From Liolophura sinensis (lineage: Eukaryota; Mollusca; Polyplacophora; Chitonida; Chitonidae): DNA of 64,000 nucleotides. The stretch spans positions 32,410,402-32,474,401 of the forward strand of contig NC_088301.1 of NCBI RefSeq assembly GCF_032854445.1, in the 5' to 3' direction. Shown in pieces: positions 74-63,733 of this stretch (its first letter is position 1; each line of letters starts with the position of its first letter). The notes under the pieces are model-generated. The model had not been told where the DNA came from. It saw nothing but the letters and a program-made list of their open reading frames with translations, and ran no database searches. Position numbers and translations under genes: made by a program.

Positions 74-132
74 CCCATGACAGATTCCCTTTGCACTTCC
101 CCTTTAATTGTCTTCAATGTGCCTGTCATGAT
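74..132 (-). CDS. Probable further FYB-like exon
   Basis: Between CTCTTCAG and GTAAGTG, this minus-strand segment reads IMTGTLKTIKGEVQRESVMG without a stop. It starts in the phase left by the previous exon (phase 0) and ends in phase 2. It is assigned to the FYB-like gene only by phase and strand; the peptide is not recognised. The gene would continue left of the window. Confidence 0.5.
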
Positions 133-6100: not shown

Positions 6101-9100
6101 AGTTATCTTCAATCAAATAATATTCGAAAACTGAAATACCCTTCCAACATTCAAATGAGACGATTCACTTTTCTCCCCAAAATGACATATCCAAGTTCAA
6201 ATATAAGATTCGAATAGATTTATTTGGAATTTGCTCATCTATAATGCTGATGTATTCACTGGATTTGACTGGAAACTGGTAGTTATGTATTCATTTCAAT
6301 TATGTTGCTTATGGAATTGCTTGACTCTACCTCTCCTTGAAATGTACATTCACAGCAATGTTTAAGACTATCACTGGAAACTACAAGAATGTATCTCTCC
6401 TTCCCTTATACATTCACAGCAATGTTTAAGAAATCACTGGGAAGTGTTACACTGTATCTTTCCTTCCCATATACATTCACAGAAATGTGTAGGACTATCA
6501 CTGGAAATTGCTAGAGTGTATCCCCCCTTCCCATGCACATTCACAGCAATGTTTAAGACTATCACTGGGAAGTGTTACACTGTATCTCTCCTTCCCATGT
6601 ACATTCACAGCAATGTTTAAGACTATCACTGGAAATTGCTAGAATGTATCTCCCCTTCCCATGTACATTCACAGAAATGTTTAGGACTATCACTGGAAAT
6701 TGCTTGACTATCTCTCCTTCCCAGGTACATTCAGAGCAATGTTTAAGACTATCACTTGAAACCGCTTGACTGTACATGTACGCTTAGAATAGCAATGTTT
6801 TAGATGATCAATAAAAAACTCCTTAAATTTGTGCCAATCTACTACAGCATGGTGGTAAACCACGTTAAACAACTTAATCACACACCTTCAATCTGTTCCA
6901 AAGGTCTTTCTCCTTTTTCTTCTCTTTCTCAATCTTTTTCTGTCTTTCCTTTAAAAAAAAATTTTTTTTTTCATCATTATATATCCTTTATTATTACATT
7001 ATTGTATATACAGTATTATTATATACATGTGAAGATTCAGAACCAGTTTGACTCAAACTGCATGATTTTTCTTCAGACACCTATCAATGTGCTATTATCT
7101 TTACAACAAATACAAAGAATGTGTACTAACTTTTTCATCCTTTTCTCGTTTTTCTCTCTCTCGTTTTTCTTTTCTTTCTCGTTCTTTTGTCTTTTCATCT
7201 TTTTTGTCATCTTTAGCAGTTGATATCGCCCTGTAAAACAATGACACATCAGGACTATGTAAAGCTAAGGCTACAGAGCCTAACTTATTCATTTTATTTT
7301 ATTCAATACAAGAGCAGTCAATTTTATGGATGCAGAATACTAGAGTGGACAAACCACGTAGTTTACCGCATGCAACAAAAATTGTTTACTGTCATCATGG
7401 GCTTGGGAGTTGATTAAGTGTTGGCATCTAAAGTATCATTTTACGGTCTTCATGTGCTGCTGAAATGCATTTTAACTTATCAAACTTAAGGTGAAATACA
7501 CTAATCACATATTTCAAAGCCTGTAACAATCATGTGATAACTTGATCCTTGGAAACATGAATGCTTGTATTATATACATTGACAGTAGGGATTTCTTACT
7601 AGTTTCCTTGCAAAACAACTTGGCACATATGTCAACTTTGAATGTCAGACAGGAAAAGGAAAAGCAAATGTATTATTACTTTGCCTGAAAGTCATCCAGG
7701 GCTTCATATAGTTCATCCATTTCTCCCTCTATATGAACAGCACCCTGTAAAAAGTGACATTAGAAATATGGTTACACAACTTCTGCCACCATGAAAGCTG
7801 TTTGGGAAATTTTACAAAAATATTACAAAGACATTCTTCTGTACAACTAACCATATGCGGTAACAGATGATCATTAAGTTTCACCTATGAGCAAAAAATG
7901 TGTAACGGACATATTAAACCTATCAAATTAGAATTATATACATCAATGTACATGTAAGTCTACAATGTCATGTACATACACTCTCCCAGCAGTCTAATCC
8001 TGCCAAATGCCTTTTGCAAAGAACAAAGCCATCAACAAGTTGATTCATAAATTAAATAGGAGAAGATTAAGTTTCCCAGAATATCTATTCATTCATCACT
8101 CTGTTAAAAACAATACTGCCTTGTTTTACGAAAAGAGCAGTGGACAACTAAAACTTAAACTTACCTCGACAGCACAGTCATCGTATGTCTCTCCTTCTGT
8201 TAAAACACAAGACTCTCACTAAAAATTTTTATTTATATCATTGGCACTTTAATTCTATGCTCAGGAACTTTCCCCTCTAAAAATGCTGGTCAGATTTATG
8301 GGAGGGAAGAACCAACTGCCCACTGTAAACCAGCAACTTTTACTAGCTTGACATGAATCAAATAGCTGAACTAGCGGGAGTTGGATTTGAACCTAGGACC
8401 CCACTGATCAGGGGAGGAATAGCTGTAGGAACAAGCAATCATTTACAGAAACAGAAATCCATTCAAAAGAGGAAAAATCTCAGGGCTAACTTATGGCTGT
8501 AAAAAGACAGCAAAGGGCCCCCTAAAAAATTCTATACACAATCATTCTATTAGACATGCCGAAAAAATGCATCTGTAATAAGGCTTTCTATATATATGTA
8601 TATACATTCGTCCTATGGAATATTATATTACACCAGGTTAAAATATGGTACATGCACTTGTTATCAATTTGTCAGTAAATGAAATAGATCCTAAACAATT
8701 CCACACGCAGAATCTCTCTACAATCTTAAACAGTTCAATTGTGATTGGTTGTGATTGGAAGCTGTTCCAGTCAGTTGTGGTAGTCTCACATATCTCATGA
8801 CTTGGCAGACAGTTGATAAGTTTTCTCTATCAATCAAACCGCTGGACTGATTTTGGGTGGTTACAACCAAAATATTTTATTTTTCTAACATGTACATCAT
8901 TCTCCCCTCCAGTGAGATTACTTTCATCTCACATACATTTTTTGTTTAATTCTGTCTGAGCAGTGTGCCAGTAACAGGATATATGAGACATGCATTTCTT
9001 GCCTTGGGTCATCATAACAGAGTTGCTTTTATGGCACCCCATGGCTACTTGTCTATTTTATATCATGACTGTTTATTAATTATTAATTAATGTATTTGTA

Positions 9101-13192: not shown

Positions 13193-14754
13193 CTGCAAAA
13201 ACAGATATATGATAACATGTAGGGGAGTAATGATGCAGTTACATTTTGAATATTATCAAGAGATGCATGTAAAGATGTAAGGACACAGGAATATGCAGAA
13301 ATAAAGTATGGTAATATAGGGTACAATACAGTATTAAAGGATTAGTGTCCAGATTTAACTACTGGATCTGATCATAAAGATTATAACCTGTTTCCACAGC
13401 ATGTTAGCCAGAGGGCTCCTGAGAAACATAATAATCACTTTACATTCACCAAAAACAATAGATTTGCTGCCCTAGCTGATTACCAGACAGCCGCCCCGTA
13501 CTGATCAGTGGATGGCCTCACAGATGGCCAACCTGGGCCTAGCTGGCCTAAATAACCTGGCGATTCGTATCAAAACGATGTCATTTTTTAGATGGATTCT
13601 AGCTACTCTGAAGCAAATATACTGCTGTATCAATTTTAACCCACAGTGGACGATGTTGAAATTCTGATTTATGACACTGACATCTCTGCGCAGACTTCAG
13701 ATTCTGAGTTTTCAGACTCTGAATTTGATCTTTGTCCAGGCATTTCCAACCGCACTGGTAAGCTATAGCTGTACATTTCATGCATTTATTTTAAGATTTA
13801 ATATTTATTTACTCTTCTTTCCCTCTGTGGGCTTCACAATAAATATCATTCTATCATTTCCCGAGAGATTCAAAATTCATACCTATATGCGATGACAACT
13901 ACCGGTACATGTTATTGTCAGCATTCCGAATAGAGTCATGCACAATATAAATACAGGTAGGATGTAGACGTTGCTATTCCTTGTTGGCCTACAAAGATTT
14001 CCTATCTATCAGTTTTCAGTTCTTTTAACAGTATTTTGTAAGTACTGTGTTCAGGTGCCGTTGTGGAAATTCAGTTGTATTCCTGTCACAGCTTTCAGCA
14101 GTAAAATGGTGAGAGCAGATACGGCTGTTTTCGGTGGGTCCAAAATTCCTTCTTGTGTCCTTCCCGTGTTATAGTGAAGGTGATCAAATATAGTTGCCTA
14201 ACATTTTGGACGGGTCAACTCATACAGTTGGACTTTTTCTACCTTCAAATATAAAAGAGTTCAAACTCAAAACTCCCCAACCAAATGGATGAAAATTTAC
14301 ACTATTGTTGATTGTGTCTGAGGTTAAAGTAAAGAGTAAGGTGAAAAACAGAAAGCAGAGCACTCCAAGCTTTGCCATCAATGCTCACTATTTATAAAGA
14401 AAGCAAATGCTATCAATTTAAAATTTCAGAAAAAAAATTAATTAGAATAGATTTTTTTCCAAACCTGGGAATTTGTTTCTTTTGTTTCATAGGGGAGGAG
14501 TGGAAATACAATTTGTCTTGAATTCTACAAATTCTTGTAAATGCCCTATGGAAATGAAAATTATCTGGTAACTTTGGCGAAAAATAATAAATCTACCCCT
14601 GTTTGCGTAATACAAAAAGATGCTATAACATGCAAAGATACATGTGCACTTATAAAACTAGTACATGTATGGAGAAAATTACTGTGAAAATTACATGTTA
14701 AGATATACATGTACCCACTTGAAGAAATAGTGTATCATGTAAAGATACCAAAAC

Positions 14755-39752: not shown

Positions 39753-39837
39753 ATGGCTTCGTGTGCGTTAGACATCGTAGCAGAAGCCTTAAAAACTTTG
39801 GAGGAAAAATGCTCAGTGTTGCTACAAACTGATAAAG
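39753..39837 (+). CDS. RIMOC1: RIMOC1 exon 1
   Basis: MASCALDIVAEALKTLEEKC then SVLLQTDK; donor AAAG/GTAACA, phase 1. The opposite strand is open only because the exon is AT/purine-biased. Confidence 0.82.
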
Positions 39838-42800
39838 GTAACAGGAAAGAGAAAATATATATATATTTGAAAAAAGGAGAGAGAGAGACCAAAAAAAGAA
39901 AAAAGAAAGAAATACAGAAGAGAAAAATGGTATGCTGACGCGACGCTTCAACTTTGTCAGTTTGGTGTCACAGAGAACAGTAAATAAGTCCTGACTCATA
40001 TGACGACACGCAATGATGCTTTCAGTGTATAGAAACTTTGTGACAGCCAAAAGAAAAGGATTATATATATTGATGTTCAAGTACCAGTAAAAAGCTATGT
40101 ATATTTGTATCTACAAGTACTATCGTCCACAGGTATTTTATGTTCATGTATGTGCTTCAGATGTTATGCTGGACAGTTATAGACAACAAAATGATGTGTA
40201 GATTTTAACCAAACTGCATGTAAAGTGTTATCCAGTCCTCCTTGTTGTCCATTAATAGGTCACACTGTACATAATCAAATTACTTAAAACAAAGACCTTA
40301 TCTTGTTTGATGCTTCTTATGAGATTCTCGCTGGGGTCTGGCTGAAATATTGCCAGTGTGGTGTTAAGCAGTAAGCATTCAGTGTTAAAAGACTCAAGTC
40401 ATAAAAAGACTTCAGTATCACCAAGACATTGGGTAAGTTTTGATGCATGCAAATAGTTTGGATCTGGTGTAGGCTTGTCTGCCAGCCCTCTGTCACTGAA
40501 ACAGCTATCATGTATTAAAGACCATCAAGGTCATAGATTTAAGCATAAATCAGGGTGTCTGACATTAAATAGTTCGTGTAACCTTGTAACCCCAGTTAAA
40601 AGACAGGATGTCAAAAATTTGATCGAGACCTGGAATCAAACCCGGGTTGGGTCATATTAAAGAGTTTAAGAATGGTACGTGTTGGTGCCTCACTTGGCGC
40701 TCAGCACTGAGAGGTTAGAGCCAGGAAAGCGGTCTAGTCTGCCAGGTGTCAGTATGATGTGACCAGGTGGGGTATCATGTTTGGTGTCTTCGGCAAGATA
40801 CTTCAGTGGCTGGAGCACTTTGGCGACATGGACTCGCCTGGCCACAAGGAAACTCATTATATATACACACACCTAATGGCTCTTTGTCATCATGTAACTG
40901 AAAAATTGTCCACTATGACATAAAACCACAAGCATTCATTCATTCAAAAATCAAAAAGCCGAATGATTTAATAACTAATAGACAGTCCTCATCAAAGCTA
41001 GTATAAGTAATGAACATATGATTCTTTTTTACAGGAAATGAGCTTCTGATTTCTTCTAAAGTTGCCTGTCAAAAGCTTCTTCAGCAAATAAACAGCAAAG
41101 ACACTGTAACCCTCACAGACTGCTTACAAGGATATGCCCAGGTAATTAACTATAATGTGTACATTTGTAGATGTATGGATCCAGGGTATGGATAGCTCAT
41201 AGTTTCCAACAGTGTAATCCCTAATGAGCTATTTGCAAAATGCACGTGTTACTTCACTTTTTCAAGGATTTACCTCCCCTAACGATGAGTATCAGTTCAA
41301 TTATCCATTGCTGCTAGTATTTGGTAGCACCAGTGAGAGGGAATTGAATTAACCACTGGGATTAACTGTGACTAATCCGCCTATGACTAATCCGTGACTA
41401 ATTTCGTATAAGGTTAATTACTTTTTAATCATTGTCGTTTGTTTCTGTGCATTGGGAAACTGACAAAATAAACAAAAATATTTTGCATAGTTCCATATCC
41501 TTTAGTACTTAAATAAAAGACAGATACCGTCAGTGAAGGTACCGGCCCTGATGGCTCAGTTGGTATAGTGTCCACTTCGGGGGAGGTACATGTAGATCCC
41601 GGGTCAATCCTTGGTCAGGTCACACCTAGACCTTAAAAGAGGAGGTTGTGGCTTCCTGGATTGGTGTTCAGCATGAAGGGGATAGTGCAACAACTGGTTG
41701 CCTCATATCAGTACTATGGCTCGGGCAGGGCAGCTTACTTGCCTTCGATAAGTCATCTCAGTGAAGCAGCACTAGATAAAAGAGCAGTGGAAATCCGTCC
41801 TGCAACAAGGAGGCACATTACAGACACTAAGGATTTCTTCATCATCATATGACAGAAAAATTGTACGACGTTAAACCCTAAACACTCACTCATTCACCCT
41901 CTATGAAGGGAGGTAATTCCTGGAAAAGGGAAGTGACCTACTCCATGTACATATATTAATAAAATATAGAATAGCTAATGTGTTGTGTTGTTGTGTGATG
42001 TAGGAATGTGAAAATTAACTATACATTTAATATGATAGCATACCTCTGATCTCAGTTTGGAATGTCAGGAAATGCTGATATTTTACCTTTACGTAAATCA
42101 TCAGAGCAAATCTAACAAGTAGAGAAGTCCAGATCCTTTCAGTAGCACAAGTAAAGGGCATGACAATATTATTGTGTGAAACATTTGAGGTTCATCTCTG
42201 ATTAATGTATATTTGCACGCTGCCAGCAATCGTCAGCGGGGTAGAATTGCTAATCAAATCAAATTTTCTGTATTTACAAATATAGCTCATATTATATTCT
42301 GTAAATATCAGGCTTGTACCTGTTTACTATGTTAAAATGATCATTTGATTCTGAAGTTTAAAAAATTATAAAGGAACCCACGTTATAAATTTTATCAACT
42401 TTATTTCTGATTTTGAATGGTAACGTGTATGTATTTTAGGTTGATATTTTGTGAAGGGTAGTAATTTGGAACCACTGATTAATTTCTTCTACTGGTAATA
42501 GAGAATAAAGGTATCTGCAAAGAAAGTCAAAAGATTGTGGAAAACCCTCCAAACCACTCAACCTGAGTTGATGATGGCACAAATGTATATTGAAATATAG
42601 ATCTGTTCCTATAAAAAGCGTGACTTTCTTAAAGTTAACTTTATTCTCTAGTTATTTGGGCTGTTCCAAAACAGTAGCAAAAATTGCATTGGATTTGCGC
42701 TCCTACATGTATGTTTTTTCAGCTGTGCAGGTACTCATAGCGTTAATAAAATCAATAGAAATTAGAAATGAACTTGTATTAGATTCACATAAAAGTTGGT

Positions 42801-45800
42801 TAGTTTTAGGTTAACAGTTCTACTTTCATTCTATTACTTACCTTTACTATGACATTATTTTCTGTTTCTTCACAGGCAAGTCTTGATTTTACCTATGTTG
42901 ATGAAAATCTGCTGGTTGAAGAAGAATTCTCTCAGTCTTCCTCTGATGAAAGAATTAGGAAAGTCTTTGGTAAGTTTTCATGAAAAGTTATCCAGGGTAT
43001 TGGCAAGTTCATTAATCAGACACTTTTTCAGGTTATAAACAAATTATTCTAAACATGTCATTATCATCATTACTTTATAATAAATCGATCCCGTGATTGC
43101 AGGAGTTTTAATGCTGAGTTATGCCCCTTGATTATCCTGAGCTGTAGGGATTTACAATTGCTTCAGCTGTTTGTTATTAACTAGCATATATATTTTATTT
43201 TATTTCCAGATCAATTCGACAATGTCATAAAGCTGGCAACTGAATTGACCCCTAGTCAAAATGTGAGATTTTATCCAACTTCTTTAACATTTACTGAATG
43301 TTTTTGATGTGACAAGATGTACAAATGCATGTATGCAAATAGTATTGGCTATGGGTGTCAAATTACCATGGGTAAAGAATGATGATGTATTTGCAGGTGC
43401 TTTTGGTGGCATTGTTATTTTAGCATCAGTGTTTGGGCATCCAGACTGACCTGCTACTTGGATACACTTTTGTGACATGACCAAAATAATGTTGAAAGAA
43501 GCATTAAACCTCAAGGTTTTCTTCTCCAAATGTACATGGGAAGGTTTGACAGTAACCTGCAGATGGTTGTGGCTTCTGGTTTCCTACCAACCATCATGCT
43601 GGTCACAGTTGTTTAAGTAAAATATTATTGAGTATGGCTTAAAACACCAATCAAATAAATTAAAAAAATGAATTAACCTCCAGGAAACAAGGAAAGTCAA
43701 CACTTATTTGATTATACAGAGCAATACACCTTAACACGTACAAGTTAAACTGCGATATCCCACGAGAAATCAATGGTGTTTAACAGCCAGGCCCTTTCTT
43801 AACAATTACATGAAAAGGTTATGTAAAAAGAAGAGTATATGGTTTCAACGAACATGAAGAAAGATATGTAACAATTTTTTATTTTTATTTTTGAGGCATA
43901 CTTTATATTTCTTAATAATCCCTCTATTCAATGCATGTTTTCCGTCAGTGGACAAAAATAGTCTGAAACTATGTCATCAATAAGCATACCTGGAACACCG
44001 GGCCAGCATATCACCCCTCAATTTGGGCTCTCCCCCGAGCAGAGTTGTTTTGACAGCTATCACCATTCACCTCTCTTCAGCTGCTTAATTTCTGGGGCCT
44101 TGAGAAAACTGTTGTTCAAAGCCATTTTTTATGTCCTAACAAGAAAGCAGATATGCTTTTTGGTAGTTTCATATCGTAGGCCACATTATATACTATGTAT
44201 TAAGAATAAAATCCAAGCTTTTCATTTATCCTTTAAAATGAATGATCCATGTCAAAAATTTGACCTGACACACCTACAGAGATGCATGTTGCAATTACAC
44301 GTAAAATATGTAGGCACATTTACATGTACTTCCATCACTACACTTCAACTTAATTGTGTTTTTGAATTCAGCTCTATATGGCTTGGATAAAACCTTAATT
44401 CAGGCCATTTGTCGGGAACCTAGCAATTTTTGTTCCTTTATATTGTATTCTGTCATTCATTTGTAAACTTATGGCATCCTATAGGTAAAATGTTCTTCAC
44501 ATGGTTTGGTGCAAAAACAAAAAAAAAAATACTTAAAAGGCTAACAAATTATTGATTCAGTCATTTTTATCTTGCTGTTACAAAGTAAGGGCATGTATCA
44601 AGTATCATGAAACTTAATAGGCTCAATGGACATACTTTGGAGAAGTACGTCTTAATTTTTAAATTTTTTTGGATTTTTTTTAGTTTTCAATTTCAATTTT
44701 AGCAATCAATTTCTATGTAATTACATTTAGCCCAAGAGTGAGTTTTTATGTTTGGATAAGTTAGTAAAACAGTTTTATCTGCATCTTCCTGAAACTAAAT
44801 AGGCTTGTTGAACGTGATTTGAAGTAGTAGATATCTTAATTTTGGGATTGTATTGAAAAAATTTTTCTCAAATTATAAGATTGTGGACTTCCTGTACATG
44901 TGGTACCACTAAGGTACAACCAATGTTATAGTGTTCATTACACCTTAGGCTTTATGGATATGCCTTAAAGATGTGCATCTTTTCTTAAACCTGAAACAAT
45001 ATATGGATTTTGTCAAAAATGCCTGAGTATTTGTCTTGCTTTCTTCTGTTTGAGGTGGATAAAAGAGTTAATCATTTGATTGAGGGTTACAGATTTGTAT
45101 GTCACTGCATGGATGGAAATGTCAAATCAACTAGGCTGCCTATGTAACTGATGACTTAATTGTCGAGCTGCCAGCTCTCTCTTATTCCTTGTTAGGGCGT
45201 ATATCCTGCAGCTTTATATTCATGTAAGGTGTTGGTTCAATCCCAGGCTTGGACGGGAAATCCCTGAGTTTATCCACCTTTACTGGGGCATCAGTGTCAA
45301 CAAGCAGATGCCAGTACTCAGACCATAGGGCTCATCTGGCCACACGTATGGTCTAACATGAACTTCCATAAAGCTCATATGCCTCTCAGCTGTGCGACAT
45401 ACATCAAGCTCGGCCGGTAAAAATGTGTGCTTCATATGTTGGGAAGTCAGTCAGCTATTTTCCAAAGGCCTGGAGTTTATGCTGGGCACTTTGGTTTCTG
45501 CTGGGCACTTTGGTTTCCGCCACCCAAGAAAAAATGATGTGGTGTTGTGTTAGTGAAATACTCACCAGTTTGGTGTTAAACTCCATATCAAATAAACAAA
45601 TGTAATACATGTAAAGGGGGAATGGTCAAGTGGTTAAAGGTAACGGTGTTCGCCAGCCTTCTACAAAGGGAAGCAAATCTTGTAGCTGATAAAACAGCAG
45701 TGCCCTGTATCTATTTGAATGACACTGTCAGCTTTTATTTTTCATGATTACTGGTGATGGTATTGAAATCAGTGGTATTGTCATTTATGTAGGTAGGAGG

Positions 45801-48629
45801 GCACTGCTGTTTTATCAGTTACAAAACTTGCTTCCCTTATACAGGGCTGGCGGACCCCATTGCCTTTTCATTTTCTGGGACACATGAGGTATGGGCTCAA
45901 AACCGGCCTGGACAGGGAATTTGTAAATTCTTCTGGTCAAGGTGGTTAGAATGCCAGCACGGTGCAATGACCCAGGAGCCTCTCACTAATGTGGTCGCTG
46001 TGAGTTTAAGTCCAGCTCATGCTGGCTTCCTCTCTACATGGGAAGGCCTACCAGCAACGTGCGGACGGTCATGGGTTTCCCCCTAGGTTCCGCCCAGTTT
46101 CCTCCAACCATGATGCTGGCCGCCATCATATAAGTAAAATATTCCAGCGTAAAACACCAATCAAATAAATGAATTCTCCTGAAGGCACTACACATTGGGC
46201 CTTTTGGACAATAATCAGTGGACGTCACTTGTTAAGTCGTGTGATTGTTGCAAGCCACTTGTATTTCACATGCCAAAAGTCAGTGGTTTTATATGGGCAT
46301 TCCACCAACCACCACGAACCAACATCACATAAGTGAAAAATTCTTCAGTATGGCATGCAACCCCATATCATATAAACAGAAAAATATAATACATGTGAGG
46401 TTATGATGCAATCAGTCTGTTTTTGTCTTTGTGTCTTAATAATTTTTGCAACGAGGCATTTTCCTGTATTTTAAAGTTTTCTGTTCACTATGTTGCCAGC
46501 TTGTTGATGTGCTTACCCCAGACTTGTATGAGTGCATCCTGTGGAGGAAGGGGGCACTATTGTACATGTACTGTTCCTGCGTGGAGAAGGATGAGACTCG
46601 TGCACAGTCATCAGAATTCATGGAGGTAACTCTTAGCAACCAGTTTCTAACCAGGATTTCTAGTCCTTTATGTACTCGGGTCTCCAATTTTCCATTTTCT
46701 TCCCAACTTTCACAATTCTTTATGGACAACATCGTGATGTAACTGAAAAAATTGTTAAGTATGACGTTAAACCCCAAGCATACAATATACAATATACATG
46801 TTTTAGTATGATGCCTAGGATAACCTAGTAGGATACAATCTTACATTTTAAACAAACATATTTCTAGGATGAAAAGGAGCACTAACTTAGTCATGGTCGA
46901 AAGTTGAGGTCAAGCACTTTGTTGTTTTTTTTGTTATTTGATTATTCATTAGTACTTCATGTCACAAATATTTCATAGTTTACAGGAACATACAAACATT
47001 CGTCAATATCAGGGAATGAATTTGTGAAATGCAACGTTTTTCACCTGAAATTTGTACTTCAGTGCAGATTAATAAACAAGATATTTTATCTGTCTTGCAG
47101 AACTTGCAGAAAGGTGTTGGATTTCTTCAAGAGATGCTCAAAGTTAGAATTCCTCTGACAGAAAGTAGGGAGGAAATTGAGTTTAATGACATAGAAACTC
47201 TGCAGCTCTTGCAATCAGGTAAAATACTGATCAGTGACAAGACAAACTATACACGTTTTGTGTTACAGGTACAATATGACAGGACACAAACACATGCTTA
47301 GCATTCACAGAAATGGTTGAGTTCTCAAAGTCAGGCTTGTGACCTCATTTCCGTATGTGATGCGGAGGCAGAGGATTGACCAAGCTACCTACCATGTGCA
47401 TTACAAATGCTCTGCCCACATAAATTTATTTATTTATTTCATTGGTGTTTTATGCCATACTCGAAAATATTTCACTTATACGACAGCGGCCAACATTGTG
47501 GTGGGGGGAAACCGGGCAGAGCCCTGGGGAAACCCATGACCATCCGCAGGTTGCTGATAGACCTTCCCACGTACGGCCAGAGAGGAAGCAAGCATGAGCA
47601 TGAGACTCCTGGGCCATTACGCTGCGTTAGCACGCTAACCAACTGAGCCACAGAGGCCCCCTGCCCACATAAACGTTTGTGCTCTAGTGTAAGAAGTGCA
47701 TGAAGGAAGCTACAGCTTGAAATCGTGTAATCAAGTGTGGCGGTGCACCACTAGGGAAGTCATCCTTTTCATATATTGATTCTCGGAACATAGGTTAAAG
47801 GTTAAACCACTAATCCTTAACCAATGAGGAAGTAGCTTGTACAAAAATATTTTCCGTTGACTGAGCTGCAGCATTACGTTACAATTTGTCACTGACTTGA
47901 TGAGTTGATATGGTTTACCCATGACAGCTTCCTTAATACATAAACCTGCTATCATGTAAGTGACAGCAACACAAACCATAGAAGGTCTAACTTAAACTGT
48001 ATACCTGAAGGAATAATGGTATTAGTATTGTTCCTCTTCAGCCGGCCTGGAAATAATGGTAAGGTCGGCTCTGGACATAATGGCAAACCCTCCCTTTTCA
48101 CATTATTAAAAAAAGTGTTATTTTGTCCTGCACCAAACAGTTGGTCCTTGTCAAAATACTATTTGGTACAGAGCATTGCCCTTATCCTGCTAACTTTACA
48201 CTCTCTCTTCAAACTTTAATACAAAGTAAGAAAATAAATGACTGCATTTTTTTAAGACTGCTCAGTGATGTACATGTGCTTCTGTCTCCAAACTTACTAA
48301 GTCAGAAAACCAAATATTTTGCATTTTTGGGGCTGTGAAGTACAAACATGTATACTTCTCTCTCCAAACTTACAAAGTAAAAAAAATCATTATTTTGCAT
48401 TTTAGGGCTGTTCAGCGATGTACATGTGCTTGCTCTCATGTACTGTGGCGAGATGTGCTTTTGGTATCACACCTATGCCAAGAGTGCCACCGCAACAGAT
48501 TTTGATGCCAAATCCACTGGAGTGAAGCTTTTGAGAGACTACATCAATGCTGTTAAGGGTCCCCTCAGTGGGAAAGGTTGGAACTGTGACCGGGCTGAAC
48601 AGTTACTTAAGGTGCTCCAGGATACTTGA
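39753..48629 (+). CDS. RIMOC1: RAB7A-interacting MON1-CCZ1 complex subunit 1
   Basis: Seven coding exons: 39753-39837, 41035-41141, 42876-42969, 43210-43262, 46500-46625, 47101-47218, 48406-48629. They total 807 bases, 268 residues, against about 294 in human C5orf51. All GT-AG junctions agree in phase. Signature stretches are ECILWRKGALLYMYC (human ECLSWRRGALLYMYC) and GLFSDVHVLALMYCGEMCFW (human GIFSDIHLLAMMYSGEMCYW). In human cells the protein binds RAB7A and the MON1-CCZ1 exchange factor, stabilises RAB7A and supports mitophagy. No domain of known fold is obvious. The start codon (TCAAA ATG G) is the first in frame and follows upstream stops. The gene is convergent with DPH2. Exon 7 opens within a tandem repeat. 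Confidence 0.88.
40612..40945 (+). mobile_element. SINE family B copy
   Basis: In RIMOC1 intron 1. Head ATCGAGACCTGGAATCAAAC, body GTGTCAGTATGATGTGACCA and GGTATCATGTTTGGTGTCTT, tail AACTGAAAAATTGTCCACTA and AAGCATTCATTCATTCA. Confidence 0.8.
41035..41141 (+). CDS. RIMOC1: RIMOC1 exon 2
   Basis: After TTTTTTACAG: GNELLISSKVACQKLLQQIN and SKDTVTLTDCLQGYAQ, donor CAG/GTAATT. Human counterpart ends LLELYTQA. Confidence 0.85.
41540..41895 (+). mobile_element. tRNA-derived SINE family A, full length
   Basis: In RIMOC1 intron 2. Head GATGGCTCAGTTGGTATAGT and CGGGTCAATCCTTGGTC are A- and B-box-like. The body matches 22878-23221 and 51861-52218; the tail reads ACGACGTTAAACCCTAAACA then CTCACTCATTC. 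Confidence 0.9.
42876..42969 (+). CDS. RIMOC1: RIMOC1 exon 3
   Basis: After TTCTTCACAG: ASLDFTYVDENLLVEEEF then SQSSSDERIRKVF. Human counterpart AILDMTYFEENKLVDEDF. Donor TTTG/GTAAGT. Confidence 0.88.
43210..43262 (+). CDS. RIMOC1: RIMOC1 exon 4
   Basis: After TATTTCCAG: split Asp then QFDNVIKLATELTPSQN; donor AAT/GTGAGA. The least conserved exon, accepted on phase agreement. Confidence 0.75.
43535..43672 (+). mobile_element. SINE family C, 3' part
   Basis: In RIMOC1 intron 4. AAGGTTTGACAGTAACCTGC, TGGCTTCTGGTTTCCTACCA, TTAAAACACCAATCAAATAA. Followed directly by dispersed families X and E. Confidence 0.8.
43673..43875. repeat. Dispersed repeat, family X
   Basis: Second copy of the sequence at 25611-25810, again directly after a SINE C tail. 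Confidence 0.8.
43876..44130. repeat. Dispersed repeat, family E
   Basis: Second copy of 15430-15680. Shared ordered words: TTTATATTTC, TCATCAATAA, CTGCTTAATTTC. Confidence 0.6.
44131..45636. other. RIMOC1 intron 4, middle part
   Basis: No exon. The first part (about 44140-44400) may belong to the preceding repeat. A tRNA-like SINE with B-box-like GTTGGTTCAATCCCAG lies at about 45155-45420. Confidence 0.4.
45637..45870. repeat. Fold-back repeat, arms about 75-100 bp
   Basis: AAGGGAAGCAAATCTTGTAG then CTGATAAAACAGCAGTGCCC on the left is matched in reverse complement by GGGCACTGCTGTTTTATCAG then TTACAAAACTTGCTTCCCTT on the right. The outer parts also pair (CGCCAGCC with GGCTGGCG). The arms are moderately diverged. 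Confidence 0.85.
45945..46175 (+). mobile_element. SINE family C, full length
   Basis: In RIMOC1 intron 4. Head AAGGTGGTTAGAATGCCAGC and GTGAGTTTAAGTCCAGCTCA, body CAGTTTCCTCCAACCATGAT, tail GTAAAACACCAATCAAATAA. Confidence 0.88.
46500..46625 (+). CDS. RIMOC1: RIMOC1 exon 5, family signature
   Basis: After GTTGCCAG: LVDVLTPDLYECILWRKGAL then LYMYCSCVEKDETRAQSSEF and ME; donor GAG/GTAACT. The most conserved part of the protein. Confidence 0.9.
46705..46800 (+). mobile_element. SINE A/B tail remnant
   Basis: TGTAACTGAAAAAATTGTTA then ATGACGTTAAACCCCAAGCA, the tail shared by families A and B. Confidence 0.7.
47101..47218 (+). CDS. RIMOC1: RIMOC1 exon 6
   Basis: After GTCTTGCAG: NLQKGVGFLQEMLKVRIPLT then FNDIETLQLLQS; donor TCAG/GTAAAA. 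Human counterpart DGISYLLQMLNYRCPIQ and FQDLDTAKLLSA. Confidence 0.88.
47427..47664 (-). mobile_element. SINE family C, full length
   Basis: In RIMOC1 intron 6. The tail is at the left (TTTATTTCATTGGTGTTTTA); the tRNA-like head at the right reads GCTCAGTTGGTTAGCGTGCT on the minus strand. Confidence 0.92.
48180..48440. repeat. Tandem repeat, unit about 75 bp, spanning an intron-exon border
   Basis: Units start near 48180, 48255, 48330 and 48405. They share TCTCTCCAAACTTACAAAGT and ATTATTTTGCATTTT. The last unit is the true acceptor and the first about 35 bases of RIMOC1 exon 7. Confidence 0.85.
48406..48629 (+). CDS. RIMOC1: RIMOC1 exon 7, C-terminal
   Basis: After GCATTTTAG: GLFSDVHVLALMYCGEMCFW, a variable stretch, then VKLLRDYINAVKGPL, KGWNCDRAEQLLKVLQDT and TGA. 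Human counterpart KKYVSVCEGPL and EWNTTNAKQIL. It is shorter than human in the variable linker. Confidence 0.9.
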
Positions 48630-53018: not shown

Positions 53019-53152
53019 TTATGATGAGTAATGTGGCGTTTCATTTTCATAACTTGCTGCTATGCCACTCTGGCCGATCACAGCCTTGCTGACAGGGGTC
53101 TCACCTAGCTTCCTCTCCAGCCCTTTCCACTGTCTCCCAGAAAGAAAATCAG
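53019..53152 (-). CDS. DPH2: DPH2 last exon
   Basis: After TATTTTTCAG: split Ala then DFLSGRQWKGLERKLGETPV, SKAVIGQSGIAASYENE and stop TAA. An earlier acceptor (TTTCCCAG at 53290) would add 45 unmatched residues; the nearer one fits the human sequence PAASFLSSRSW. Confidence 0.9.
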
Positions 53153-56100
53153 CTGAAAAATACAGCAGGCTATTCATACTGTGATCCAAGTTTACTCTGT
53201 AGTCTAACAATAACATTTTTTCTTGGGAAATTTTCTTGGATTTTGCCAAGACGTCTCCAGACAAAAATAAGGTCCTCAGGCCGTGAGAGCTGGGAAATCC
53301 ACATCACAGTACAGCAAAGAAACTGCAAAGAACATGGTTTCTTTTGGCAATACTTCTTTCAGTTTTAATTTAAGATATCAACACAAGTGGATTTACTAAC
53401 CCAGCAACCTGCAGATGGTCGTGTGTTCCCCTGGACTCCACATGGTTTCCTCCCACCATGATGATGGCTATCGTGAAATATTACTGAATATTAAGAAATC
53501 AATAAACAAATAAATAAAATCAATAAATAAATAAATTTACCAACCTGCTGTGTTGGAAACAGCTACATGTAAAGCTTCCTCTCTTGGCAACACTGCTGAT
53601 GAAGTATTCTCTTCATTTTCTGCTTCACCAAGATGACGCAGATTTCCAGTAATCAAGGAAACATCATATCGGTCTTCTTGAGAAATTTCTGCAGGAATTT
53701 CCACATGATCAGAGCCACCTGAAATGTGCAGAGCCGATTTTATACCTCATATTCATAAGAGAATTTTTTTTGGTTTTTTTCTTCATTCAAATTAAATAGT
53801 AAATTTTCAGGACCGAGATGGATTGCTAGTTTTCATCACTATACGTTGGGTCATTCCAAGAGTCATAAGGGGAAGATAACTTTACCTGGAAGAAGTTGCC
53901 TAAAGTCCGTGTAATATTCCCCAGTCCATTCTCTATTTGTATTACAGGCCACCTCCATTTCCATCGGTGTCACAACTGGTTTGTAAAACTCCGACGAATC
54001 AATTAGAGTACTCTCTGTACATGCGAGTAATACAAATACATCAACCTCCATGAAATTGGCCAATTTGGCCACATTCAGTTTGCCAACAACAAACGTGTAA
54101 GTCTTCTTTCCTGCCTTCTTTAAAAGTTCCTTCATTCGATTCAAGGCCTGGAGATAATCCGTCACACCTAAAGTTCCAACAACTATACCCACAATTCTCG
54201 CATCTTTTGCTCGCTCTATCATGTAATATCTTTTCATTAACGCCTTATTAACATTCACAGTCTCTTTTCGAACAGTTCTGTCCTCGGGATCATAAGTATA
54301 AAATTGACATCGATTGAAATTCATTAACAAATTGGTCAATGTCAAGCTTTCTTTGCCTATATACAACACTGCGTATTGTTCTAACTGGCTCTCTTTTGGA
54401 ATGTCGACCTTTCGCCTACACCGGCAAATTGTTTCCAACGTATCCACATTGTCGCCATCTTTTTCACTGTGTTCTTTGGTCGAGTTCTTCCCATAGTCGG
54501 CTGGAATTTGAAGCTTTGAGCAAATGACATCTGCAAACTTTTCATGAAGCCCTGCCAAAATATTTTCTGAAAAACAATAAAATAAATAATATAATTAAAA
54601 AATGCATAAAATAATAAAATAGTAAACGGATGGTGAAAAAAGTGAAAGTATAATGCTCAAAAAAAAGAGAAAACAAGGCTGAATAAAATATTATTTATTC
54701 CAATCGACGATTGCCACAGAAATTAATACTGGCATGTAGGGCTGAGAATTGAGCAGAGAAGGGCAAGAACACTGCCAAAACTGTAACCAAAAACAAATCG
54801 CTTACCATGAAATCACATATCGATGCTGACAAGACAGGAGAACTGACAGAACCCGTGAACTTTTTTCTGAGTGAACTGGCTAAAATGTGGGTGCTTATAT
54901 GCCCAGATGCACCCTGAACTTGCAGCCATGTTGTACTTACAATTGAAAACAGTACCCACGTCCATAACCAACATCTCTTCTTTATATATGTACACGTATG
55001 TCCAAGGGTGCTTTTCCAGCATTAAATGTGAGGCAGTACAATGTTCCATGAAATCTTTAGATTTAAATTATCTGACTGGTGGTGAGCATCACATCATGAT
55101 ATATTTGCCTACATATGTAATTATAAATACTGCGGTCACCCGCCAAGCCTGCCAAAGTAGCTGACAAAGATTTTGGTAAATAGTGACTGCTGAAACAACT
55201 GGCATGAACACAAAACCTTCATCACTTGAGTTCACTGGCCCAATGACAGCCCATCAGTACATATGCATCAAGCTAGACAACATATTCAAAAATGGTATTT
55301 TCAATACAAAAAAAGAGCTAAATTCCTCAATATCATATAGCTTTCATAAGTACATGTATGTGTAAAAATTTACTTTTAGAGGGTTGAATTTTTTTATTTC
55401 TAACAACATGAGCTGTATTTGAACCTACAACATTAATGGTGTGTCCCAAGTTATAAATATCATACCTGCAGCATGGTAAAAGATGACATCATACATTAAA
55501 ATCAGCTTTGGCTTTGTATCTGCAAACAGGGAGGCAATCTTCTGTATACAGTCTTGTACATTAATGCTTCCTTTCCCAAACACAAACAAAACTGGCAGTC
55601 TGTCTGTGGGGCTGAGGCACGAGCGGCCGTAGTGTATGATAGAGTCTGAGCTGTAGTGCTGGGCTGCTACTTCATCAACACAGCAGCTGTAACAAGGGTA
55701 TTACACATATAGCATGTCATTTACACCCAAACAAAGGGTCAACAAAGAAGTCCAGCCTCAGTATGAGGATGAACGAAAAAAAGAAATGAAATACTGCTAT
55801 TTTGCCAGTCCTCTTTCATTTCGTTTATAGCATTTAGTAAAAAAAAGGGAGCGAAAAAATTTCTCAGCCTTCTTTGCAAGACTTCAATAGGGCTTTAACA
55901 ATAAGGCTTTGTCAAATGTAAGTAGTGAGCCTATCATGCCTGTGCAGCCAACTGGTGCTGACTTATGTGCATCTACTGCAGTCTAAGAGCTATAGTGCAG
56001 TTGTTTCCCACCTCAGAGATTTTTCCACACTCATATAAAAAGCTAACATTGCATACAAATAAAAATAATGTTTAGTACTAGTAATACAACAGCTACACAA

Positions 56101-56309
56101 CTTCACTTCAAACAGAACACCTTTCTATTATAAATCAAAATGTCAGAATCAAACAAATATAACAAGCTTTTTAAGTTCTACAAAAGGATACCGTACCTTC
56201 CATACGAAGTGTCACCAAGAATAAAAACATCTGCCAATGTAGCATCTTTCAGATATTCAGCTACTTTTGCTGAATCTACCAGCAACTCATCAGGAAATTG
56301 AAGTGCAAC
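53019..56309 (-). CDS. DPH2: Diphthamide biosynthesis protein 2, lacking first exon(s)
   Basis: Exons in transcript order: 56309-56197, 55686-55466, 54566-53886, 53718-53545, 53152-53019; phases agree throughout, giving 440 residues. Human DPH2 has 489, and the missing 48 or so match the N-terminus before VALQFPDELL. DPH2 partners DPH1 in the radical-SAM [4Fe-4S] enzyme that moves 3-amino-3-carboxypropyl from SAM to a histidine of elongation factor 2, in the cytosol. Three cysteine positions used for clusters in the family are present: GDTSYGSCCVDEVAA, IIHYGRSCLS and VFVLLACTES. Other matches are RAKDARIVGIVVGTLGV, KLANFMEVDVFVLLAC, DVSLITGNLR and FLSGRQWKGLERKLGETPV. The first coding exon should lie between 56310 and the SMC2 promoter but I could not place it. 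Confidence 0.95.
53400..53537 (+). mobile_element. SINE family C, 3' part
   Basis: In the last DPH2 intron. CAGCAACCTGCAGATGGTCG, GGTTTCCTCCCACCATGATG and an AAATAAATAAAT tail. Confidence 0.8.
53545..53718 (-). CDS. DPH2: DPH2 exon with DVSLITGNLR
   Basis: Acceptor ATTTCAG, donor GCAG/GTTGGT. A competing donor four bases on (TTG/GTAAAT) would break the join to the next exon as chosen. Reads GSDHVEIPAEISQEDRYDVS then LITGNLRHLG. Confidence 0.88.
53886..54566 (-). CDS. DPH2: DPH2 central exon
   Basis: After TTTTTCAG: split Glu then NILAGLHEKFADVI. Includes LEQYAVLYIGKES, KALMKRYYMIERAKDARIVG, FVLLACTES with the third cysteine, TPMEMEVACN and FRQLLPG. It has no ATG start of its own. Confidence 0.95.
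55466..55686 (-). CDS. DPH2: DPH2 exon with CCVDEVAA cysteines
   Basis: After GTTACAG: CCVDEVAAQHYSSDSIIHYG then RSCLSPTDRLPVLFVFGKGS and YDVIFYHAA. Holds the first two cluster cysteine positions. Donor CAG/GTATGA. Confidence 0.95.
56197..56309 (-). CDS. DPH2: DPH2 exon: VALQFPDELL to GDTSYG
   Basis: After ACTTTAG: VALQFPDELLVDSAKVAEYL then ADVFILGDTSYG, ending AG/GTACGG in the split Ser codon. Phase 0 at the start. Confidence 0.93.
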
Positions 56310-58754
56310 CTAAAGTAAGAAAAAAACAATCTTTACTCATTTTGTCCACAAACATGCACTAGCAAATGCAAGTGATGGCGATATTGTCCTTTCAGAAATG
56401 ACAGTGGCGGTATTTAAAAGCTAAGTCAACAGTACACTAGACAAAATGTATACATCACGATCCATCAATGAAGTATCCCACATGACGTTTACAACACATA
56501 CGTTTTTAATGTTGTGATATGGCATGCCTGATATATCAGTGCAAAGTAAGTAAAATCAAGTGTACTGAGAAAATTGAAAGTGCCACCATCTTATCAATTT
56601 TAACCAATCAGGTGCAAGTTTTTTCTATAACCCTAGGATGTTCCGCTTAGATCACCTGAACCCTCTTTCGCCTTTTAACCACATGTGGGTGGTTACAAGT
56701 GACAGTTGCTCTAACGAAATACACTCAAATAACAACCTCTCACCCTTTTCAGCTGATGAGTTTTAATCCATCTTTCACATCTGTCAAGCTCATAAAACTC
56801 TCTTATGTCTCATCTTTCCGCAACTGGCATGTTTCTGATGTAATGTTCCGTTTGATTGGCTCAGCAGCATCAGAGCTAAAAGCAACAGCAGCCATTTTGC
56901 TGTAAACAAAGTGTGAAATCAGCGTTATTTCCAGTTGATACCAAGCCAAGTTCATCATGGTCCTGTCACAGTTAGAAAAGCAAAGAGCTCTGTATCACCT
57001 TTGTCTCTAGACTTGTCCTACAAAATTTCCAACTTCCCTCTGATATATTTTGATGCCACTGCATCGTACATTTATATATTTACTTTTCCTGGAGTAGTGC
57101 CAGACTTCTGCCACCCCATACCTCAAACACTTATCATGTGTCCTCCAGTTAAAGTACTGACCTCCACAATTATGTGCGCTACAATTTTGGCAGCCTTAAT
57201 TTATTCCTTAGAAGCCTGCCAGACTCAAAGCTCATTGCCCATAAAGGCCACCTTCTCCGAGATTGCTCTTTTCGGTGAAGGATGGCCCCAAACAGAGCGC
57301 TCTCCATACCCATCAAATACATCCCACAGTCTGAATTTGAAGACGCTTATGTTCGTTATCTTTTCGTCTGTCTTGTGGATTGTATCGCAAGCACAACGTT
57401 GATCACTTATTTCACTGGTCATGCAGTCCCTGAGATTCCTTGGTGATGCTCAAAATGACTCGCTGTTCTGCCAGCTCTAACATATTTGACAAGGGCAGGT
57501 CATTGCATTAGGTTTTTAAATAGAGCGTCCTCTGATGTTGGTTTGGGGGCCATACTAGGTTAAAACAAAATTTGGCCAAACATAACTTCAAAGCAATCTT
57601 GGACCTAGCCCCACTTATGTGGGTCAATTGATCAGATGATGCACTAAACATACCAAGCAGTACAGAGCCACACTCATACCTGGCAAAAATCAGACGTGAT
57701 TAAGTAACCCATTCTCATTTTCACGTGACTTGGGAATTCCTGCGAGATACATCATCAGTTGTCGGGCTATAAATACATAGGTGTCTTATCTAGTACCTCA
57801 GTCATATTCAGGTAACCCAACAACACAGACTATAAATAGACTCTCAACATGGAACACTTTTATGGAAAATTTGGACATTTTGAAGAACCGAGCAAACATG
57901 ATAACTTATAGCTGCTAGATGAAGTCATTCAGTTAGAACTGTCAGCAGTACAACTTTCCAAGCTTGGTCATTTAATGTGAACATCTTAATTGGTCTTAAT
58001 TGCGTGTAAAATTTGGCTTCCCTTGTGTGGGAAGACCACAGAGCAAACGTTATGTGACATTACACCAGATTGCACAATTATGTCGAATACAAACAATGCT
58101 CTCGTTCCCCCGAAATAGAGACCCTGGCTATGAAACACAAGGATTTCCTATGTATCATAACCAGAACCTACAAAACGAAGATGCAAAAATGCTCAGATGA
58201 GATAAGTAAACTATTGTTGAGTACAGTGTAAAACATCAATCTAATAAAAAAATAAATCAGTGCTTGATATAACATTTTTCCTAAGCTTTCTGGCAGAAGC
58301 AAGTCTTCTGCTTCCCGCACACCGTCGATTTCATAAGATGAGTGTGTGAAACTGGCCTACTAACTACGTTAGAGCATCGTTAAATCAGGTGTCTGTTTCA
58401 CTCGTGGAACTATCTTGGATCAGGCGTCCTTTTCTTGTTGTTTACTTTTAAAAATTTGTGCACAAAATATAACTTTTCAAAGAAATCTAAATGTGTAACT
58501 GGGAGATCATTGGTGACACTGCCACACGCCGTTCCAGGAAGAAACAGTAGACCGCTGACTAAGCCTAACGCCAATTAGAATCAGTGACAACGTGATAACC
58601 TGGCACCACACCTGTTAAAAAATAATTCTGTCGTGCAAAAATGTATTTCCCACTTATTAACTTCCACGCTTACTGTTTTATCTGCGTGTCACTTTTCTCA
58701 GCTTGTTACGCTTTTACGTGGTATTGAACCAGATTGCCAACCCAACCTGTGGGA
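56310..58754. other. DPH2 5' intron(s) and unplaced first exon
   Basis: No exon recognised on either strand. Contains dispersed repeat G (56595-56700) and a SINE C tail at 58211-58258. A 155-codon plus-strand open frame (56935-57402) has no recognisable family. Confidence 0.45.
56595..56700. repeat. Dispersed repeat, family G
   Basis: Second copy of 18465-18610, in the 5' intron of DPH2. Confidence 0.5.
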
Positions 58755-58883: not shown

Positions 58884-59050
58884 ATGCACATCAAGTCAAT
58901 AGTCATCGATGGATTCAAGTCCTACGCCCAGCGTACCGAAGTCAATGGATTCGACCCCTTGTTCAACGCAATTACTGGATTAAATGGGAGCGGAAATCCA
59001 ATATTTTGGATTCGATCTGTTTCCTGCTGGGAATATCAAATCTAACACAG
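58884..59050 (+). CDS. SMC2: SMC2 exon 1, frame broken in Walker A
   Basis: Frame 1 reads from the ATG to GLNGSG (58994). The expected AAA TCC is AA TCC, so the frame shifts by one and [19 protein letters not shown] continues in another frame to the donor CAG/GTAGGC. Length 167, one less than a multiple of three, while the other four exons are exact multiples. Confidence 0.93.
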
Positions 59051-62000
59051 GTAGGCCTACTGTACATCTGAATCGCACTGTGAACATCAAAGATACTGAT
59101 ATGTTATACTATGTAGAACTTACATAGTATAGTGAACCGTAAAGACACGATATATCAAACTAAAACATTTGTTAAATTTAATTAAACGTCGAGGCAGGTC
59201 AGTATGTCAGAAATCGTTGAAAATAGACCTCAGTGTTTAATTTAATTGAACTAACTAAACCAGTATTTATCTAAAGTAAGAGTATGTCTATTTAAAAAAT
59301 TTCAGACCATCTAATCATATTCATATACTCCAATTACGTATTACATTTACAACACATACTATAATGATATAGTACTTGTGTTGAGAGATCATACAAGTAC
59401 ATCGGAGTTCCTCTGGGGCCGAGGAGGATAGTGTGCCAGAGCGGCGCAATGACCCAGGAGTCTCACCAAGTCAGGTCATGTTGGCTTCCTCTCCGGCCAT
59501 ATGTGGGATGGTATGTTAGCAACCTCTGGATAGTTGTGGGTTTAATTCCCCTGGGCTCTGCCCGCTTTTCTCCCACTGTAATGCTGGCCACCGTTGTATG
59601 AGTGAAATATTATTGAAGGACGTAAAACACCAATCAAATAAATAAATTCAGAGGGAAAAGCATTTTTTAGTCTCATGTAGTCATGCACTTGCCCAATTAA
59701 TATTTTAGCAAAACAAGTGTTTGAAATGGACATTGTTTTGCTGGGAGTGGGGTTGTTGAGCCAAGGTTGCTTATTATATCACATGGCAAAGCTATAAAGT
59801 CATTCCATTGAAGAATCTGCCTTTCACAATGAACATTTGGGTTAAGAGACGGCAATCTGATGCCTAAATCACTTGTGTCTCCCAAAAGCCATACAAGTTT
59901 TATGACTATCTATCTATGAAAGTGTTCTTTGTTGTGATGACAGGCCCTGTTACCGTCCAATATCAAAATTGTCACAACCAAGATTTCTTGTCTAAGAAGG
60001 GGGTCCATTGATTAACAATGCATAACCACCTCAGCCTTACAAGATTAGCCTTCAGCTTTACAGCTCTGGTCCAAAAGTCAGACATGAACTTGTTTAATCT
60101 GCATTCTGAAGGTGCATTTTATTGACTTGTTTATTTATTTATTTACTTTTACTTATTTTTTGCATTAAAGAATGTTGTATGTGTGTTAAAAGGTACGAGC
60201 AAGCAGTCTGCAAGAATTGGTGTATAAAAGTGGCCAAGCTGGAATAACCAAAGCAACCGTTAGCATCACATTTGATAACAAAGACAAGAAGCAAAGTCCA
60301 CTGGGCTATGAACAACATGAAGAAATCACTGTTACACGACAGGTGAGTTTCAGAGTGCTTTGCCTAAATTAAGGGAATCCGGGTCTTTCTGAGATGTTAC
60401 AAACCACATACAAAAAAATATTCAAAATAGCACTGATTGTCTTCCAGGGCCTAATCTCGCCTCAGAAGGGCAAGGGGTGGAACCACCGGTGAAGGGCACC
60501 ACATTGTTGATTATTTTGATTCTCACACATTTTTAAGGCCTGGGTTAATAGGGTTGACCTCCACTCCACGTGCACACCACAACCCGTACCTAACCTGAAA
60601 ATTCAGTGTAAGGATAGCTTGTATTTACTGATATGTGGAGAACTCTGCTATCCCGGATGACATGTGCATCTGATCATCACATTGTATCATAGCTACCCCA
60701 GACCATAATTAGAAAGTTGTTTGTTGCAGGTAACAAACCCCTGTTTTTTGAAGACGAGTTGGGTTGGTCGACATATTTTTTTTTTTTTTGAAAGTAAATT
60801 AGAAGTAATAATCTGAATGCTAAAAATTCTGAATTGAATATCGCCGGGTCCAGTTTTCATCACCTGCTTTAGGGCATACAGGGGGATGTTAACTGCCCTT
60901 TAAACACTTTGTTGTTTTCATAACCAAGTTCTTTCACACTAAAGTCAAATATTCCTTCTTGATTCTGGACCCAACATTAAACTTGAGTAAATTTACCGAA
61001 CTTTAAACCTAAACATCTGAAGTTGAAAGGCATCCATTGCTTTCTCCACTGTGGCAAAAGGAAGACACAGAAATTATACTCGCCAAAAGTAGTGTGGCAA
61101 ATGTCTAGCCAAAGCCTAGCGACTAAGTAGATAGTCCAAGTCTTATAATGAATACGGGCTGTTTCGTTTTTTTTCCTAAATTTCTTTTTTTTGACACAAA
61201 GGGCACTTCAAGGGAACGGCAGTGCCAATAATTGGACGCTGAGTAGGCCTGGATTAGGCCCTGTCTTCAGACTTATACATCTATATTTTTGTTTTCTATT
61301 CACTTTACGCTATCGGCATACTAAGGTGAGCAGGCTGTTACCCTGTAATTTGGATAATTACCTTAAGCCCTTTCGGTCGAAAGGAACACACAAGGTGTGG
61401 GTTCAAATCCAGCCTTGGACGGTGAATTTTTATGTCACTGTCTGTGGGTGCGTAGTAAGATTTGTCATTGACTTGTTTACTCTGGTTTTCTTGGCCGAAA
61501 AACTGAAAATAAGAAATGAATGTAATGCTGAATGGATTATGACGGCATATGTCTGTCTGTCTGTCTGTCCATTTAAACAACATAATAACAATAGAGGTTA
61601 AACTGCATGAGATAAGAATCTCATATTTTGTATGCCGACTCATATTGAAGTTAACTAGGTTCCATTCTTTAACCGGCACTGTTTCGATCAAATTTCTGTT
61701 TTCCATGGCAACTGGATAGAAACGGAAAGGCTGAATGCTGTGTTATCACAATAGTAGTTACTCTGTTAACATGGAGATTCCAATTTTCATAGATAGCTTC
61801 AAATTGCGTGAATTTATGAATAAGTTCCTATTTAAACTTGTGGTTTTTCCATCAAATTTTTGGAAACAGACCTGTCAGGTTATCTTGCACTCATGTCCCT
61901 CACTGAGTGATTAGGCCATGTTGAGAGATATGATATCAAAATCTGACAGATGACAGCTGGTGATTTTGTAAAATTGAAGTTCCTTTTGAGTAAACTGTTT

Positions 62001-63733
62001 ATCTGTTTGAGTGGCCTAAGACAGGGGGTTTGCTCAGAATTTCATTTTTCTCTCTTATATTTCAGGTTGTGGTTGAAGGACGGAACAAATACCTAATTAA
62101 TGGCAGTAATGCCAACAATACCAGGGTACAGGACTTGTTCCGCTCTGTACAGCTCAACGTCAACAATCCTCACTTCCTGATCATGCAGGGTAGGATCACC
62201 AAGGTCATCAACATGAAGCCTCCAGAGGTAAATCACTTGTCTGAATCAAGTGTTGTACAAACAAACAGTACATGTAGAATATCTGTTAAAACTATTATCA
62301 GCATTAAGTGTTATATCAACAAGTGGCATGTGGTATTTTTAGTGTGTTAGAATTGTGTTTTGTATAAAAAGATGGATCAGATTATGATAACGACCTCAAT
62401 AGATAAAGCCTTGGAAAAAGAGATCTAAGCAAAAAAAATAGTTCATTTGCCTACTAGAGTAAGCTACAGCACTTCGCCAGTTATGAAATAAAGCTTCTGA
62501 TTTAAGACTGCAGCTGAACCAGCTAGTGCTGGATTTGAACACATGACCTCATTGGTCAAGAGCCTGGTATGAACATAATCATTAGAGGACAAAATTATTT
62601 AACTTACGCCAGAGACATTGAGTAATACAGGTAAAGAAATCTAACTACTGGTACCTGTCAATGGTGTTAAGATTTGTAGGAATGGATGTGTGTGAATCTT
62701 TATATATATCTAATATATATCTCCATTACCATTTCCTCATATCAGATTTTGTCTATGATCGAAGAAGCAACAGGCACCAGGCTGTACGAAAGTAAAAAGG
62801 AAGCCGCCCAGAAAACAATTGAGAAGAAAGACATGAAACTGAAGGAGATTGACACTGTAAGAATTACTGTGCATATTGTAGAATTCAAATACTTTAATAT
62901 TATTATGCAGTTACAGGATTTTTTAATCATTTCATGGAGAACTGTGATGATTTTACACAAAGTAAAATATTGAATTTTTTCTACCTGTGACACATATGCC
63001 TGTCCAAAAGTATCTCCACCTGGACAGGCGTCTTAATACATGTATATCTGCCTTTGAAACTAAAGAGGGCATCGCCCAAGGAAAATAAAGGGATGGATCC
63101 AACACATCCGATGTCTCCCCACCCATTCTCATGACAACGTTACTTTTTATTCTATTCCCAGTGAAAGCGATTGTGACGTCATAACCAATGTGTGGGACAT
63201 TCGGTTGACCCTTTGCAACAATACTGTTTATGATTGGTCAAGTGTATGTTCTTGATTGACAGTTTGAAAAGGTCTAGATCATCCACAGATAGCTGGCCAT
63301 AGAAAAATGATGATACTTACAGTATAATCTGTTCAAGCATGTATTTTTTTGATGGGTATTTTTGGTATAAATATCAGATATGTTATGTAGTTCTTTTAAT
63401 ATTTGCAACAATTAGTTAAACCATCTCTTTCATGGATATTTCCCAATAAATATGTCAAAGCATATAAATGTTAAAGTCAAAGATGCAGTTTATGGTAAGC
63501 AGTTGATAGCCCATGCTATTTGTTGTTTCATTTTGAACAAATAACATCTACATCATAAATCTGTGGCTGTGGCTACTGTTTCCTTTACACCACAGATATT
63601 GAAGGAAGAAATTTCACCTACACTGACCAAACTGAAGGAAGAGAGATCCTCATATTTGGAGTACCAGAAAGTAATACGAGAGTTGGAGCACCTTAACAAA
63701 CTGGACATTGCCTACAGATTTGTTCGTGCTGAG
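58884..63733 (+). CDS. SMC2: Structural maintenance of chromosomes 2, N-terminal part
   Basis: Exons 58884-59050, 60193-60342, 62066-62227, 62746-62856 and 63596-63733 encode about 243 residues; the gene leaves the window at the right. SMC2 pairs with SMC4 as the ATPase core of condensin I and II. Seen: [20 protein letters not shown] at the start, the Walker A loop (frameshifted, see exon 1), [20 protein letters not shown] across exons 2-3, [18 protein letters not shown] with the Q-loop, [20 protein letters not shown], then the first coiled-coil helix [20 protein letters not shown]. Identity to human is very high by eye. All four introns lie in phase 0. One base is missing in exon 1 relative to the expected frame; the rest is intact, so a sequence error is the simplest reading. 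Confidence 0.96.
59415..59655 (+). mobile_element. SINE family C, near full length
   Basis: In SMC2 intron 1. CGGCGCAATGACCCAGGAGT, TTGGCTTCCTCTCCGGCCAT, CTGTAATGCTGGCCACCGTT and GTAAAACACCAATCAAATAA. Confidence 0.88.
60193..60342 (+). CDS. SMC2: SMC2 exon 2
   Basis: [20 protein letters not shown] then [20 protein letters not shown] and [10 protein letters not shown]; 50 codons, donor CAG/GTGAGT. Confidence 0.96.
60343..62065 (+). other. SMC2: SMC2 intron 2
   Basis: No exon. Holds a poly-T run near 60778 and a tRNA-like SINE segment at about 61340-61440 with B-box-like GTGGGTTCAAATCCAGC. A short TCTG run occurs at 61553. Confidence 0.5.
62066..62227 (+). CDS. SMC2: SMC2 exon 3
   Basis: [20 protein letters not shown] then [20 protein letters not shown] and [14 protein letters not shown]; 54 codons, donor GAG/GTAAAT. 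Confidence 0.96.
62746..62856 (+). CDS. SMC2: SMC2 exon 4
   Basis: [20 protein letters not shown] then [17 protein letters not shown]; 37 codons, acceptor CATATCAG, donor ACT/GTAAGA. Confidence 0.96.
62857..63595 (+). other. SMC2: SMC2 intron 4
   Basis: No exon and no repeat that I could name. Confidence 0.5.
63596..63733 (+). CDS. SMC2: SMC2 exon 5
   Basis: [20 protein letters not shown] then [20 protein letters not shown] and RFVRAE; 46 codons, donor GAG/GTAAGG. Start of the coiled-coil arm. Confidence 0.96.

Follow-up and report, generated by a model that had tools for sequence, protein, structure and literature searches.

A single-base frame break in the Walker A loop of an SMC2 gene, probably a consensus error in the assembled sequence

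An SMC2 gene begins on the plus strand near the right end of the window, i.e. the whole 64,000-nt stretch of DNA that was analyzed. Its first five coding exons lie inside, and the gene continues beyond position 64000, where its hinge and C-terminal half, with the signature motif and Walker B, would be located. The reading frame of its first exon is interrupted in the Walker A loop. This raises the question of whether the break belongs to the DNA of the organism or was introduced into the assembled sequence. The features of the gene are as follows, with the type of evidence in brackets.

58884-59050, plus strand: SMC2 coding exon 1, frame broken in the Walker A loop (frame translations, chain matches, exon borders)
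58992-58999, plus strand: site where the frame breaks, GGAAATCC, with SMC2 residues 37 and 38 on either side (chain matches of both frames)
59043-59045, plus strand: TAA that ends frame 0 of SMC2 after 53 codons (frame reading)
60193-60342, plus strand: SMC2 exon 2, intact (chain match, exon borders)
62066-62227, plus strand: SMC2 exon 3, intact (chain match, exon borders)
62746-62856, plus strand: SMC2 exon 4, intact (chain match, exon borders)
63596-63733, plus strand: SMC2 exon 5, intact, the gene extending past the window (chain match, exon borders)

Exons 2-5 were used to determine the identity of the gene. They are 150, 162, 111, and 138 nt long, i.e. multiples of three next to a first exon of 167 nt, exactly as an earlier sequence-only reading had stated, and all of them have AG/GT borders, are in phase and free of stops. 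Their translation (187 aa) matches residues 57-243 of the PDB chain 9f5w_A, which we take to be human SMC2, with an E value of 1.9e-94 and 154 of 187 identical residues. Four of the six best sequences are named SMC2, and the other two (6qj0 and 6qj1) are named just SMC protein. The E values for other kinds of SMC proteins were 4.4e-19 for prokaryotic Smc, 4e-15 for SMC3, 7.1e-06 for SMC4, and 0.00062 for SMC1, showing that exons 2-5 are closer to SMC2 than to any of these. Counting all three compared stretches, i.e. residues 1-37, 38-56, and 57-243, 206 of 243 residues are identical to 9f5w_A, and this chain was the best match each time. Judged by these similarities, the gene at 58884 onward is SMC2, the core ATPase of condensin; unlike known SMC2, it has a frame break within the Walker A loop, after residue 37 and before residue 38. 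A search of genome_contigs for relatives returned six prokaryotic SMC loci with 26-31% identity, which were of no use here, and none were found in viral_contigs.

Exon 1 starts with the ATG at 58884 and ends at the donor GTAGGC. The claim that its first 37 codons encode SMC2 up to NGSG was borne out: frame 0 from the ATG yields residues 1-37, ending in NGSG, with 34 of 37 residues identical to 9f5w_A, the best match (E 3.7e-18). The rest of the exon is SMC2 in the next frame, where 19 codons match 9f5w_A again, at residues 38-56 (E 2e-5). The sequence-only reading had called this second part perfect; the match in the shifted frame stands, but it is not perfect, as 18 of 19 residues are identical and a single T/S mismatch is present. 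Two adjoining SMC2 stretches that are in register and split by one frame step constitute a match far exceeding chance. The one-base break that had been proposed for the Walker A loop is thus confirmed. The P-loop (Walker A) motif is GxxGxGKS, and the break lies between its glycine and its lysine, so that frame 0 reads NGSGNP, the K-S are found in the adjacent frame, and the start-codon frame has no intact Walker A motif.

A functional gene could carry such a break if it were recoded. If ribosomes slipped by −1 at the glycine codon that precedes the break, they would return to the SMC2 frame, and arithmetically such a step rejoins it ahead of the frame-0 stop. However, programmed −1 frameshifting uses a slippery heptamer of the form X XXY YYZ, and frame 0 of exon 1 contains none up to its stop; the local heptamer is C GGA AAT. 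In addition, the neighboring gene DPH2 (see below) would require a recoding site of its own. We know of no precedent for recoding in SMC2, and we give this explanation hardly any probability.

To obtain an indel rate from other genes, translated frames, with stops written as X, were scanned against Pfam. The scans covered the plus strand up to 49000 and the minus strand up to 58700, the latter in one frame over 1-9000, in pieces separated by gaps of ~10 bases, and only DPH2 and RIMC1 were found in them.

53019-56309, minus strand: exons 2-6 of DPH2, joined as an open frame of 1323 nt, serving as a control (Pfam, frame joining, NCBIfam profile)
56744-56895, minus strand: DPH2 exon 1, apparent one-base frame break (inferred from exon phase, stops, DPH2 profile)
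39753-48629, plus strand: RIMC1, seven exons, control without a break (Pfam, frame joining)

The seven exons of RIMC1, which lies 10 kb away, join as a single open frame of 807 nt that is unbroken. DPH2 (53019-56895, minus strand) is adjacent to SMC2, and its exons 2-6 also form one open frame. The situation is different for its first exon, which is 152 nt long, i.e. a multiple of three plus two, whereas the junction with exon 2 needs phase 0. The ATG frame of exon 1 closes after 30 codons at a stop at 56803-56805. In the frame leading on into exon 2, a stop lies immediately upstream, and exon 1 offers no ATG. Exons 2-6, extended by the end of exon 1 that is in frame with them, match the NCBIfam DPH2 model with an E value of 4.9e-109, starting at model position 32, and the length of the piece in the ATG frame fits the 31 unmatched model positions. 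When this N-terminal piece of 30 residues was searched alone against NCBIfam, no family was matched; to our eyes it resembles the N-termini of DPH2 proteins. Taken together, the exon phase, the stops, the start of the profile match at position 32, and the length of the piece lead us to read exon 1 as broken. With good, but not complete, certainty DPH2 would thus also carry an apparent one-base loss, ~2.2 kb from the break in SMC2.

A micro-intron or a different acceptor site was considered as an explanation for the DPH2 break and was rejected. As judged by eye, a TGA directly precedes the first usable codon in the continuing frame, and the only AG that would avoid this TGA (GATGAG) has no upstream pyrimidine tract.

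DPH2 and SMC2 are arranged head to head, with start codons ~2.0 kb apart (56895 and 58884), and a shared promoter region is possible. The remainder of the window was also surveyed. A scan of codon usage yielded 25 segments, among which no additional gene was recognized, and scans of the window with Rfam (gathering scores) and for tRNAs returned nothing. The minus strand contains an open stretch of 271 codons from stop to stop at 12437-13252, where S, T, P, and K appear abundant by eye; it has no Pfam match in the covering frames and no NCBIfam match, and is possibly an exon of some gene. An interspersed repeat of roughly 240 bases is located at 59401-59660 and is matched in part at 14 other places in the window; it resembles the SINE-like elements of molluscs, and the repeats suggest that the animal is a mollusc.

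Apparent breaks in two adjacent genes could indicate a recent segmental duplicate of DPH2-SMC2 that is decaying while working copies are present elsewhere in the genome. The SMC2 gene has introns and therefore is not a retrocopy, the introns of the broken genes are kept, and early decay would produce one or two lesions. However, the three genes, 3010 coding nt in all, showed no lesion beyond the two breaks, which speaks against an old duplicate, and RIMC1 is intact. A second copy of SMC2 exon 1 is not present within the 64-kb window, in which all other matches comprise only 11-12 bases with E values of at least 1. An unprocessed pseudogene would be recognized by several lesions or relaxed conservation, while SMC2 has one lesion in 728 nt, and its conservation is as high behind the break as in front of it (18/19 vs 34/37), without any sign of decay. 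A decaying duplicate therefore appears quite improbable.

Alternatively, the individual may have been heterozygous for a loss of function, with one null SMC2 haplotype that was kept by the assembly and another haplotype that sustains life. A recent null allele would appear otherwise intact, as is observed here. If the animal is a mollusc, a high genetic load is plausible: load is reported to be high in oysters, and an estimate for wild stocks of the Pacific oyster, cited in a passage of one paper, is 11-19 deleterious mutations that leave more than 95% of the larval progeny inviable (PMC8477599). However, a null SMC2 haplotype would need an independent second null in the adjacent DPH2, or an unrelated error there. 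We regard a real null allele as unlikely. A related case is the haplotype assembly of Trypanosoma brucei, for which two things are described: indel errors introduced by the collapsing of alleles, and premature stops that are real and specific to one allele (PMC8445201). The organism here is a different one, and the present sequence is unphased.

The explanation that fits best is a consensus error. SMC2 would then be an ordinary, probably functional gene, from which the assembled sequence would have dropped one base in a short run of A in exon 1. Under-polishing of a long-read assembly would have left this single-base error in the consensus, and a similar apparent error would be present in the adjacent DPH2. 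This explanation is favored because each of two adjacent and otherwise intact conserved genes has an apparent one-base loss; in the visible part of SMC2, everything apart from the break is intact, the start codon included.

To put the explanation in numbers, the coding sequences of SMC2 (728 nt), DPH2 (1475 nt), and RIMC1 (807 nt) were checked, in total 3010 nt. Two breaks in 3010 nt correspond to a 95% interval of Q26-Q41 for the error rate. SMC2 was picked for being broken, and as an ascertained gene it was then omitted from the rate; this leaves one break, a small number, in 2282 coding nt, corresponding to Q33.6 with a 95% interval of Q26-Q49.5. For comparison, a passage in the Vertebrate Genomes (VGP) paper gives Q30-35 for CLR assemblies before polishing, and names short indels, which lead to amino acid frameshifts, as the commonest errors of unpolished CLR assemblies (PMC8081667). 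A further apparent single-base frame break was found in one of the two other conserved genes nearby (exon 1 of DPH2, in part by inference; none in RIMC1). The probability of at least one further break is 0.68 at Q33, 0.20 at Q40, and 0.02 at Q50, while under real loss-of-function frameshifts, assumed to affect 0.1-1% of gene copies, it is 0.002-0.02.

Some observations stand against a consensus error. The run of A at the break is short, a mild homopolymer, and RIMC1 is unbroken. The run-length table of homopolymers in the window, which reaches 16 A and 14 T, shows no visible compression of long runs, although it is not discriminating. All in all, we think it likely that the frame break in SMC2 stems from a one-base error that insufficient polishing left in the consensus of a long-read assembly. 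We infer an unbroken frame in the organism's own DNA and a sequencing platform prone to indels. The sequence-only reading had listed an assembly error, a broken allele or duplicate, and a rare variant and had chosen none of them; this reading is supported, and the apparent break in the neighboring DPH2, a gene that it does not mention, now favors the error. Frameshift-type consensus errors of long-read assemblies likewise break the frame by a single base in conserved genes that are intact otherwise, the difference being that here the error is deduced from the assembled sequence.

On present evidence, the break is most likely no biological novelty and has an ordinary cause. There is a very slight probability that it is real and fixed, so that either the P-loop is recoded or a second SMC2 copy is used while this one and DPH2 are lost. 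A true break would be remarkable, as an essential condensin ATPase would have a broken P-loop. In budding yeast, ATP binding by Smc2 was disrupted by mutating its Walker A lysine, K38, in a section whose heading describes the ATPase of condensin as essential for the yeast cell (PMC5986713). As K38 is the residue mutated there for this purpose, a non-functional SMC2 would not be credible in an animal without another copy. If the break is an error, the SMC2 and DPH2 gene models of the assembly may be truncated or mis-spliced, and no loss of conserved genes should be inferred from the assembled sequence.
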